Origin: Bacillus sp. AFS059628 | GTDB taxonomy: Bacteria; Bacillota; Bacilli; Bacillales; Bacillaceae_G | DNA: 45,399 bases | Direction: 5' to 3' | Assembly: GCF_002571225.1 (NCBI RefSeq) | Contig: NZ_NVEC01000050.1 | Location: 7,613-53,011 of the forward strand | Part shown: positions 3,546 through 25,021 of the stretch, one piece after another | How the letters are laid out: the number at the start of each line of letters is the position of its first letter | How positions within the stretch are numbered: position 1 is the stretch's first letter | Translations under genes and position numbers: made by a program | The notes under the pieces: generated by a model | Databases searched by the model: none | What the model was told of the DNA's origin: nothing | The model's input: the letters and a program-made list of their open reading frames with translations, nothing else

Positions 3546-3795
3546 CAAAAAATCCCTATGTCTATGACATAGGGACGATTATTCACCGTGTTACCACCCA
3601 GTTTGTATAAATAGCATAGCTACTCATACCACTCTTAGCAATAATATCGATTGCCAATCCGCTTAGCATTACCTAAGATACTCCAGAGTGTAATTCGCAA
3701 GTTTGTTTGTGCTAGGTTCCAGCAACCCCTAGCTCTCTCGTTAACAGTGACAAACTGCTACTGGGCTCTTTCAACGTATGTTATTTGTTAAATTA
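3546..3795 (-). promoter_or_regulatory. T-box riboswitch leader of tyrS
   Basis: The antisense strand of 3586-3600 reads TGGGTGGTAACACGG, the T-box core that forms the antiterminator bulge with the tRNA acceptor end. It is followed by a strong terminator stem built from TCCCTATGTC and its complement (3553-3575) and a U-rich tail (3546-3552). A stem-I region with paired elements occupies about 3660-3780. The sequence GAATTACACTC in it contains a candidate UAC tyrosine specifier codon (complement of 3690-3692). The leader fits the tyrS gene it precedes. Confidence 0.92.
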
Positions 3796-8368: not shown

Positions 8369-8596
8369 ATAAACGCCCCTTTTCTAAAACACACAACTAA
8401 ATTTTCTTTATTTTCAGTTAACTAAAAACTGAATGACAGACATAAGAAATATTTTATCACATTGAAAACCTTATATCACTATATTTAGTTTATAAGCATC
8501 TTTATCTACCTTAAACCATTACACATATACAAAACGACTCCACTTCTTCACTGGAAATTCAATAAAATTTTTAGTACACTATATGTAATAATTATA

Positions 8597-8673
8597 GGCG
8601 ATGGAGTTCGCCATAATCGCTGCTTAGCTAATGACTCCTACCAGTATACATACTGGTAGGAGTCTATTTTTTT
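8597..8673 (+). promoter_or_regulatory. Fluoride riboswitch (crcB motif) with terminator
   Basis: The sequence GGCGATGGAGTTCGCC opens the aptamer, followed by an AATCGC-type core and GCTAATGACTCCTA, the crcB-motif pattern. The last aptamer bases are the left arm of a perfect 13-bp terminator stem, ACTCCTACCAGTA / TACTGGTAGGAGT (8634-8663), followed by a T-run to 8673. Fluoride binding is expected to stabilise the pseudoknot and prevent terminator formation, turning on crcB. Identification is supported by the two crcB genes immediately downstream. Confidence 0.95.
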
Positions 8674-8702
8674 GAGCAAACTATTTTAAAGAGGTGAAGA
8701 TA

Positions 8703-9107
8703 TTGATTTATATTATCGTTGGCATTGCCGGTATATTAGGAGCACTCTCTCGTTATTATTTAAGCCTTACTATTCATACTTCATGGCATCATTCATTTCC
8801 ATTAGCTACATTACTTATTAACTTAGCTGGCTGCTTCTTATTAGCTTGGCTAACTACGTATATCGCTCGGAGAAATATCTTTTCTTCACAGATTATCACA
8901 GGCATTGGAACTGGATTTATCGGTTCCTTTACGACGTTTTCGACATTCAGTGTAGAAACTGTGCAATTAATCCATCATTCTGAATGGAGTACGGCTTTCT
9001 TATATGTATCATGCAGCATACTTGGTGGTCTCATTATGTCTGCTCTTGGCTATACACTAGGTGATTTCTTAATTAAGAAACACCTTACGGAAGGTGATCA
9101 CTTATGA
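8703..9107 (+). CDS. crcB1: Fluoride channel CrcB/Fluc, first subunit
   Basis: A small four-helix membrane protein that exports fluoride. Fluc channels are dual-topology dimers with two pores lined by Phe residues. Visible family motifs are GALSRYYLS near the N-terminus, [19 protein letters not shown] in the second helix, and [17 protein letters not shown], which holds the sodium-site and Phe-box residues of helix 3. The start is uncertain. The TTG at 8703 has AGAGGTG six bases upstream; a GTG at 8694 would add three residues and overlap that ribosome site. The stop overlaps the start of the second crcB by four bases. Expression is under the fluoride riboswitch. Confidence 0.93.
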
Positions 9108-9460
9108 TGGAAGCTTTATTAGTAGCAATAGGCGGTTTTTTCGGTGCGATTACACGATTTACAATTAGCAATTGGTTTAAAAAAAGAAATAAAACTTCCT
9201 TTCCAATTGCTACATTTCTCATTAATATAACAGGTGCATTTTTACTCGGATATATAATTGGCAACGGTGTCTCTACAAGTTGGCAATTATTATTAGGTAC
9301 TGGATTTATGGGAGCCTTCACTACATTTTCAACGTTTAAATTAGAATCTGTTCAGCTTCTCAATCTAAAAAAATGTAGCACACTCCTTTTATACATAAGC
9401 ACTACTTACATAATCGGTATTCTCTTCGCATTCCTTGGAATGAAACTAGGCGGAATATAA
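9104..9460 (+). CDS. crcB2: Fluoride channel CrcB/Fluc, second subunit
   Basis: The second Fluc subunit (118 residues, four membrane helices) is translationally coupled to the first through an ATGA overlap at 9104-9107. Motifs parallel those of the first copy: [10 protein letters not shown] at the N-terminus, [18 protein letters not shown], and [17 protein letters not shown]. Two adjacent, sequence-divergent crcB genes in Gram-positive bacteria are usually read as subunits of a heterodimer with fixed opposite orientations; that is inferred here from the pairing. An ATG at 9107 is an equally possible start. Confidence 0.93.
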
Positions 9461-12993: not shown

Positions 12994-13039
12994 TAAAAAA
13001 AGCAGAGAGATAGCGTCATTCGACACTAGCCCTCTGCTT
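12994..13039 (-). terminator. Attenuator terminator in the ABC-F leader
   Basis: On the minus strand AGCAGAG, an inner stem and CTCTGCT form a hairpin followed by seven T residues. The U-run ends 23 nt before the ABC-F start codon. Its position inside the 5' leader rather than after a gene marks it as a regulatory terminator. Confidence 0.9.
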
Positions 13040-13041
13040 CG

Positions 13042-13163
13042 TGGTTTTTCCTATACTACTCCAATTTACAGTAAAGACTCATCGGAATAATATACACAAA
13101 GGGCCATAGACAAAGCATTGTCTATGGCCCCTTAATCTATTTTATACACCAGCGGAAAAACCA
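13042..13163 (-). promoter_or_regulatory. Central hairpin and bracketing stem of the ABC-F leader
   Basis: A perfect 13-bp stem, GGGCCATAGACAA / TTGTCTATGGCCC (13101-13113 and 13118-13130), stands mid-leader with a weakly U-rich tail on the minus strand, so it may act as an early terminator. It is bracketed by a 10-base perfect complement: GGAAAAACCA at 13154-13163 and TGGTTTTTCC at 13042-13051. Pairing of these would create a large closed domain just upstream of the final terminator. Confidence 0.7.
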
Positions 13164-13230
13164 TAACGAAATAAGCATAGATAAACTATACTTTTTTCAA
13201 AAAGTTATTCAGCCGATGAATATAGGGGAT

Positions 13231-13326
13231 TTATGCCCCTTGATTAAGCTCCGTACAACGCTTCACCGTATACATTTGTGCGGAGCAAAGTTTTCTAATG
13301 AGTTTTACAAATTTTATATAAAGCAT
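13231..13326 (-). CDS. Leader peptide of the ABC-F/MFS operon (31 residues)
   Basis: A short reading frame starts with ATG at 13326 and stops with TAA at 13231-13233. It has an excellent ribosome site AAGGAAGGTG (complement of 13333-13342) six bases upstream. The peptide starts MLYIKFVKLIRKLCS, is basic in its first half and ends ELNQGA. Its codons for residues about 14-27 lie inside a hairpin formed by CTCCGCACAA and TTGTACGGAG (13248-13286). A ribosome stalled in this frame by a drug would open that hairpin, as in the leaders of erm, msr(D) and vmlR. The stop codon sits in a small GGGGCATAAATCCCC stem. The specific stall site is not known. Confidence 0.75.
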   Translation of the reverse strand: MLYIKFVKLIRKLCSAQMYTVKRCTELNQGA

Positions 13327-13356
13327 GTTCTGCACCTTCCTTAATACTTAAAAGGG

Positions 13357-13386
13357 ATTTTAGCATACAGTTTTACGAAGCGTCAA
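13357..13386 (-). promoter_or_regulatory. Promoter of the ABC-F/MFS leader
   Basis: On the minus strand -35 TTGACG (complement of 13381-13386) and an extended -10 TGCTAAAAT (hexamer complement of 13357-13362) are spaced by 18 bp. The transcript should start near 13350, giving a leader of about 380 nt. Confidence 0.75.
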
Positions 13387-24666: not shown

Positions 24667-25021
24667 TGGTGGAGACGGTGGGAGTCGAACCCACGTCCAA
24701 AAATATCGGCACTTAAGCTTCTACGAGTGTAGTCGATATATTAGCATTTCGCGAACTCTTCAGCCTATCGACAGGCTTCCAAATTGCTAGTCTGGTTGTT
24801 CTCTTCCTTTGTCCTCAGACGGCGAACTCCGGCGTAGTCCACTTAGTTTGAGTCCCTTACCCTACCACATGGACGATGGAGGGAGGAACCTTTAGTGCAA
24901 TTAAGCAGCTAAAGAAAGATTGTTTTGTTTGCCAATTATAGGCTTTGACGTTTTAACGAGGCCGATCCCCTCGACTCGCAACCTAAGCTCGAACTATCCC
25001 TGTCGAATCCGTAACGTCCCC
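24667..25021 (-). ncRNA. ssrA: Transfer-messenger RNA (tmRNA)
   Basis: Minus-strand RNA of about 355 nt. The 5' end reads GGGGACGTTACGGATTCGAC and the 3' end carries the T-arm GGTTCGACTCCCACC and encoded CCA (complement of 24667-24669), together forming the alanine-tRNA-like domain. The reading frame within encodes the tag GKQNNLSLAA followed by TAA, the short B. cereus-group form. tmRNA with SmpB frees ribosomes stalled on broken messages and tags the product for proteolysis. It lies downstream of smpB with its own promoter. Confidence 0.98.

Follow-up and report, generated by a model that had tools for sequence, protein, structure and literature searches.

A probable ribosome-controlled transcription attenuator of the uup-RNA type upstream of an ABC-F and Mef-like operon

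We suggest that an operon encoding an ABC-F protein and a Mef-like MFS transporter in Bacillus sp. AFS059628 is probably governed by a transcription attenuator of the uup-RNA type, under the control of a ribosome. The operon lies in the window, by which we mean the whole 45,399-nucleotide stretch of DNA that was analysed. Leader-peptide attenuation of this operon had been proposed in a preliminary description, and comparison among related leaders supports it strongly, through the leader frame, coding selection on that frame, two terminator-like hairpins and alternative pairings. More tentatively, as a possibility we place somewhat short of an even chance, the uup RNA family may be the sensor half of a six-segment relay attenuator, in which one stalled ribosome would flip the pairings 1:2, 3:4 and 5:6 to 2:3 and 4:5 and open two successive terminators, with a switching strand that is independent of reading frame and a cassette that serves ABC-F, Mef-like and MATE genes from Bacillota to Vibrionales.

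Layout of the leader and its operon

The whole arrangement lies on the minus strand (Table 1). Read 5' to 3', a promoter-like site is followed by a ribosome site, a 31-codon frame with the uup hairpin inside it, a small hairpin at the stop codon, a long central hairpin, the terminator-like hairpin T1, a linker, the terminator-like hairpin T2, the ABC-F gene and the MFS gene. The open-reading-frame listing also offers a GTG at 13335 as the start of the leader frame, which would give 34 amino acids. The frame with its strong ribosome site, the in-frame hairpin, terminator-like hairpins and the two genes of the preliminary description are all confirmed, and three of its elements need adjustment. 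Its promoter can be found as TTGACG-N18-TAAAAT, but the region is not enriched for matches of this kind (15 found against 20.9 expected from shuffles), and a promoter at 13386-13357 is plausible only. Its central 13-bp hairpin best fits T1, which has more pairs than that. Its strong terminator before the ABC-F gene is T2, plain in folding (18 pairs with one mismatch, -25.2 kcal/mol) but not flagged by a pattern scan for terminators, and there are two terminator-like hairpins rather than one. T1 has the longest stem among the 5 terminator-like sites in a 5-kb scan (2.4 expected), and the 388-nt leader, with a folding energy of -131 kcal/mol, is far more stable than its shuffles (mean -85.3, z -9.6). 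A weak match to COG2827 RNA over region 3 and T1 was set aside (25.5 bits, cut-off 49.1), since it was not seen again when 14 further leader loci were scanned with E up to 0.3.

Table 1. Features of the leader and operon, in positions of the window; paired cells and double changes refer to the alignment of leaders described in the text.
Feature	Positions	Strand	Basis or remark
Promoter-like site TTGACG-N18-TAAAAT with TG	13357..13386	-	10/12 matches
Shine-Dalgarno region AAGGAAGGTG of the leader frame	13333..13342	-	duplex energy -11.0 (our own score)
Leader frame, 31 codons from ATG plus stop, MLYIKFVKLIRKLCSAQMYTVKRCTELNQGA	13231..13326	-	Shine-Dalgarno-led frame; comparison of leaders
uup RNA (RF03060)	13248..13295	-	cmscan, 67.3 bits against cut-off 36.8
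In-frame hairpin	13285-13248	-	inside RF03060 match 13295-13248
Segment 1, 5' arm of uup hairpin (P1), predicted ribosome-covered stretch	13275..13285	-	P1 95.2% of 462 cells paired; double changes in 4/11 pairs
Segment 2 = region 1, loop/3' arm of uup hairpin	13255..13268	-	partners: segment 1 (through UUGU), region 2, or T1 apex
Region 2, UUCAUCG	13214..13220	-	partners: region 1 (P2) or, extended to 13212, region 3 (P3)
Region 3, GCUGGUG	13147..13153	-	partner of region 2 within long central hairpin; helix 3: 78.1% paired, double changes in 7/9 pairs
TTATTT, matching the TTNTTT NusG pause motif	13169..13174	-	motif count across leaders
Long central hairpin	about 13222-13143	-	folding; precedes T1
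Terminator-like hairpin T1 (segments 3 and 4)	13097..13134	-	17 pairs; terminator scan; 92.5% of cells paired, double changes in 11/17 pairs
Segment 3, T1 apex ACAAUGCUUUGUC	13109..13121	-	13 pairs with region 1 (P4)
Segment 4, T1 3' arm and tail	13096..13106	-	11 pairs with T2 5' arm (P5)
Terminator-like hairpin T2 with U tract (segments 5 and 6; P5 uses 13037-13027)	12995..13040	-	folding and alignment; helix 9: 96.6% paired, double changes in 8/10 pairs
ABC-F protein gene, 515 aa	11423..12970	-	NF000355
Mef-like MFS transporter gene, 400 aa	10224..11426	-	4-nt overlap with ABC-F gene

The pairing of an ABC-F gene with a Mef-like one stands in part. The ABC-F protein meets the model for ribosomal protection-like ABC-F proteins (NF000355, 391.3 bits against a cut-off of 380), whereas the MFS transporter, Mef-like as it is, falls under the cut-offs of both NCBIfam Mef models (MefB, 215 against 800; MefA, 200 against 675). 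Because the PDB chains closest to the ABC-F protein by sequence include YbiT, EttA and PoxtA, a drug spectrum is not readable from the protein. Just upstream of the leader lie genes for a SpeG-type spermidine acetyltransferase (13938-13408, minus strand) and PsiE (14466-14065, minus strand). Further off, the window holds a T-box leader at 3568-3783 (minus strand), a fluoride riboswitch at 8588-8647 followed by two tandem crcB genes at 8694-9460 (all plus strand), and a tmRNA gene at 24667-25021 (minus strand).

The uup RNA and constraint on the leader frame

The uup RNA family has its original description, reportedly, in Weinberg et al. 2017. By score, the in-frame hairpin is a member of this family, so that the comparison with Rfam called for in the preliminary description leads to a known motif, and it stands upstream of an ABC-F/Uup-type ATPase gene, as family membership demands. 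A review places uup RNA upstream of the C. difficile ABC-F gene CD3359 and lists it among riboswitch-like motifs, and its entry on the motif speaks of a simple structure without known function, with no further evidence of riboswitch function (PMC11477304). A literature search on the names of the motif led to that review alone. The attenuator proposed here would give the motif a testable job.

Five weak uup matches (L080, L084, L085, L097, L108) were dropped before the T1 and T2 swap tests, the frame survey and the counts of P2 and TTNTTT, and eight other matches under the Rfam cut-off were retained (L079, L083, L130-L135); the weak matches L086-L091 and the repeat records L064, L066-L078, L081, L092, L112, L145 and L146 were not entered. 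A Shine-Dalgarno-led frame running into the 5' arm of the uup hairpin is found in 75 of 76 distinct leaders (dinucleotide-shuffled mean 2.7, maximum 6), and the sole exception, L082, has a frame with a weaker Shine-Dalgarno sequence. The start lies 31 nt ahead of the Rfam motif in 41 of the 75. Among 22 leaders that start at -31 (duplicates collapsed), the synonymous share of codon differences ahead of the hairpin is 0.304, compared with 0.128 and 0.096 in the other frames, and none of 500 column shuffles gave a share as high; by this comparison, the leader codons ahead of the uup hairpin show coding selection. As far as the letters can tell, then, the leader frame is translatable, with a ribosome site and coding selection, as befits an attenuator. 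Non-conservation of frame and stems in related genomes had been named beforehand as a ground for abandoning the idea; when looked for, both prove to be conserved.

Inside the hairpin the pattern is different. Across 72 of the 76 distinct leaders (L013, L057, L115 and L120 left out; start offsets from the frame survey), 49 have an open frame that divides region 1 (GAUGAAGC...) as ATG|AAG, 12 divide it as GAT|GAA, and in 11 it lies at or after the stop. Because leaders use different frames or stop before or at region 1, its nucleotides are kept whatever they encode. The predicted switching strand is thus kept as RNA across leaders that differ in the frame used there or end their frame ahead of it, and beyond about codon 15 the RNA rather than the peptide is the conserved entity; the whole 31-residue peptide was dropped from that role, since past the start of the hairpin leaders shift frame or stop. 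A peptide-level constraint before the hairpin can in this way be separated from an RNA-level constraint inside it. In the uup core of L011 and L013, a two-nucleotide insertion on the 3' side of the hairpin leaves the frame shifted after MKHC.

The window peptide lacks the R/K-X-R/K pattern of the +x+ macrolide arrest motif, its basic residues (K5, K8, R11, K12, K22 and R23) including none two apart, and a +x+ macrolide arrest reading of it was rejected.

Alternative pairings and the proposed switch

The pairing, covariation and folding figures rest on an alignment, A1, of 42 of 81 leaders (32 with T2 found by a regular expression and 10 without), which is biased to leaders with T2 and lacks most Lactobacillales-order leaders. 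The regular expression found T2 in 41 of the 81, and some of its misses show T2 in the alignment. In A1 the off structure, composed of P1, P3, T1 and T2, is 86.0% paired, with 54 of 75 pairs doubly changed, and the predicted intrinsic terminators T1 and T2, between leader frame and gene, are conserved. The identity of the T1 loop gave no clear evidence (loop columns 0.43-0.81), though conservation is higher in the apical stem (0.91, 0.97) than in the middle stem (0.61, 0.60). TTNTTT, the NusG pause signal in the accounts of the vmlR and msrD leaders (PMC9226507, PMC10314930), occurs in the central stretch of 69 of 76 leaders, against 22.4 in mononucleotide-shuffled sequences.

Region 1 and the strands of the terminators match one another within leaders better than between them. 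With T1 located without the use of region 1, the duplex of region 1 with the T1 apex in 59 distinct leaders averages -13.74 kcal/mol for cognate, -12.32 for non-cognate and -6.9 for shuffled apices, a difference reached in 0 of 5000 permutations. In 41 of the 59 the T1 apex ranks in the top 5% of possible sites for region 1; in the other 18 it does not, and in at least four of these T1 was mis-picked. For the T1 3' arm and tail against the T2 5' arm (33 distinct leaders) the figures are -15.05 for cognate and -12.76 for permuted pairs, again with 0 of 5000. The T1 picks of L057 and L059 were set by hand in both swap tests, L099 was left out of the test of region 1 with the T1 apex, and L111, L124, L125 and L130, with mis-picked T1, were kept in the set. 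In A1, P4 (region 1 with T1 apex) has 93.9% of 543 cells paired and changes on both sides in 3 of 13 pairs, and P5 (T1 3' arm with T2 5' arm) has 91.0% of 458 cells paired and changes on both sides in 4 of 11. Together they have 92.6% of 1001 cells paired, compared with 44-58% for slid versions; of 500 shuffles, none equalled them in cells paired or covariation score, 6 did in double-change pairs and 18 in pair types.

The swap and shuffle tests leave the relatedness of leaders in place. Mapped onto a 37-row ABC-F tree, the principal P4 change (columns 87/282) takes only two changes, with one same-way independent pair of two, and the second P4 pair (89/280) is a tie; the pair tests listed are all underpowered. 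Independent compensatory changes are accordingly limited in number, and within that limit the predicted, mutually exclusive alternative pairings are conserved in evolution. Their conservation suggests that the operon is turned on when a ribosome stalls on its leader.

The switch may be pictured as follows. In the off state, with pairing 1:2, 3:4 and 5:6, ribosomes would complete the leader frame, the uup hairpin (1:2) would re-form and hide region 1, T1 (3:4) would fold and end transcription, and T2 (5:6) would catch escapes. In the on state segment 1 would be covered by a ribosome held up around codons 10-14, immediately ahead of the hairpin, with a ribosome-targeting antibiotic as the likeliest cause of its slowing or stalling. 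The freed region 1 could then capture the T1 apex as it emerges from RNA polymerase (2:3), so that T1 could not nucleate; the freed T1 3' arm could capture the T2 5' arm (4:5), and the ABC-F and MFS proteins would be made. A pause of RNA polymerase at the conserved TTNTTT site may give the ribosome time to catch up.

Folding in silico is consistent with the first of these captures. In transcripts that stop at the T1 apex, blocking segment 1 gives P4 a mean probability of 0.79, compared with 0.23 unblocked, and P4 then exceeds 0.5 in 35 of 42 leaders, compared with 9 without any block; in the window it is 0.76 blocked and 0.02 unblocked, and the uup hairpin reaches only 0.27 in that shortened fold. 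Once complete, T1 wins at equilibrium either way (0.82 unblocked, 0.79 with segment 1 blocked), and antitermination would therefore have to be kinetic, decided while RNA polymerase passes. The second relay step, from T1 to T2, is weak in folding: P5 rises only from 0.11 to 0.25 with the block; the window gives 0.00, and so do all 42 leaders once T2 is complete. A switch acting at equilibrium only is rejected by these results.

The same leader attenuator might instead turn on region 2, with P2 replacing P3, the central hairpin and the pause being altered, and the complementarities of T1 and T2 secondary. No long-range helix is better kept than P2 (97.6% of 294 cells paired, double changes in 5 of 7 pairs), and at least six Watson-Crick P2 pairs are present in 72 of 76 leaders, including 23 of the 24 loci that came from the Lactobacillales-order search, a group in which P4 is often weak; TTNTTT, moreover, sits in the central hairpin. 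Yet P2 and P3 alone would leave T1 and T2 untouched and the 13-pair P4 complementarity, changed on both sides, unexplained, and we regard such a switch as unlikely.

Two further readings depart from a stalled ribosome responding to an antibiotic. That the uup RNA works by binding a ligand or a protein, in the manner of a riboswitch or for autoregulation by the ABC-F protein, with the frame incidental, we hold to be improbable: the conserved loop nucleotides in the Rfam model and the listing among riboswitch-like motifs speak for it, but pairing to region 2 and T1 accounts for the loop conservation, the frame is present in nearly every leader and under apparent coding selection, and the entry in that same review offers nothing further for a riboswitch (PMC11477304). 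Least probable of all, and very improbable in our judgement, is attenuation of the amino-acid type, in which the leader would sense the supply of charged tRNA. The window frame has no runs of one codon, and the genes downstream are of ABC-F, Mef-like and MATE kinds, not biosynthetic; what recommends it is that 68 of 72 leaders have K or R within the final four codons ahead of the hairpin, a weak signal because other frames also often have them there (88 of 144).

Known leaders and the spread of uup RNA

Compared with uup RNA as the review's entry describes it (PMC11477304), the window shares the in-frame hairpin and the ABC-F gene downstream, as at CD3359; here the motif would be one half of an attenuator with a leader frame and two terminators. 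The predicted attenuator resembles, in the published descriptions cited, several characterized leaders. Like the vmlR leader of B. subtilis, it has an upstream frame inside an anti-antiterminator stem, an antiterminator, an intrinsic terminator, a TTNTTT pause for NusG and an ABC-F gene. The vmlR leader, compared by description, differs in its 3-codon frame (MIN), single terminator and SD-sequestering hairpin (PMC9226507), whereas the window has a long frame, the uup hairpin, a second terminator and a frame-independent switching strand. The inducible cplR leader of C. difficile likewise combines an ABC-F gene, an upstream frame in a hairpin and an intrinsic terminator, but its frame is MRI and its terminator sequesters the SD (PMC10201436), and the window ABC-F protein scores far below the cut-off of the CplR model (252 against 780). 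With the attenuators of the mefA/msrD operon (PMC10314930, PMC4335068) the window shares a Mef plus ABC-F operon, leader peptides and an intrinsic terminator; the gene order differs, as do the peptides, MTASMRLR and MYLIFM, and the +x+ motif in MefAL (PMC10314930), and the window MFS is under the Mef cut-offs given above. The tlrB/yxjB leader, finally, has a leader peptide and a NusG-dependent pause, and its MIIQFIRYR loosely resembles, by eye, the ..KFVRK.. of the window, but it has 9 codons, a C-terminal RYR arrest and a methyltransferase gene (PMC6851288).

ABC-F relatives were taken from 63 loci, of which 38 were scanned with Rfam and 25 were left unscanned. By cmscan, uup RNA is above the cut-off in 26 of the 38 (17 of 19 and 9 of 19), always upstream of the ABC-F gene, and a match above the cut-off is missing from the other 12. 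Seven group searches, centred on genomes carrying the motif or kin to carriers, gave matches above the cut-off in 58 of 1312 genomes (2/80, 5/295, 9/104, 2/348, 24/295, 12/148 and 4/42). The gene directly downstream of 86 uup matches, the window included, is an ABC-F gene in 71, a Mef-like MFS gene in 2 (L102, L107) and a MATE-type gene in 6 (L082, L083 and L136 by profile; L137, L138 and L144 by similar N termini), with nothing assigned in 7. In a simple next-gene scan of the 63 loci, an MFS resembling that of the window follows the ABC-F gene in L005, L006, L008 and L020.

The genes under uup leaders thus appear to be of resistance type, and our scheme predicts that many of them would be silent until a ribosome-targeting drug arrives, so that resistance would be hidden from uninduced tests. 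If the relay is true, one stalling event would govern two terminators in series, extending the classical attenuator.

Mobile copies of the leader or operon were considered and dropped, as blastn of the window leader against plasmids and phages gave no match and plasmids held no near match of the operon. A protein search of plasmids gave 19 records, from which five regions were taken, all outside the leader set. Three of the five, from Vibrionales, have uup RNA above the cut-off, and those from Enterococcus raffinosus and Paenibacillus sp. have none at E up to 1. In all three Vibrionales leaders a frame can start 31 nt before the motif, with no clear Shine-Dalgarno sequence, giving the peptides MLYILYKNFVRRVSSAH, MIYILFKNFVRRLGSAQIHDEVLLGA and MIYILFKNFVRRLNSVQIHDEVLLGA (beginnings such as MIYILFKNFVRRLNSVQ), and region 1 pairs best with the T1 apex, though with only a modest edge over shuffles of the sequence downstream, of which 17, 59 and 12 in 200 did equally well.

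Acetobacterium-type leaders upstream of ABC-F genes (L030, L031, L033, L038, L047) carry a similar short peptide, e.g., MILTIEAARTMRLSMRHCFEPKDKV, and that of L033 has a CATCGGT element. Because L030 and L031 show such leaders yet no match above the cut-off, the Rfam uup model may miss members. Eight genomes of one group search (e.g., G991 and G1123) have two uup matches each, one of them under the cut-off, and in G1123 both (L122, L135) precede different ABC-F genes. In Paenibacillus thermotolerans, a ZTP riboswitch lies just past the ABC-F gene (L004:4599-4679).
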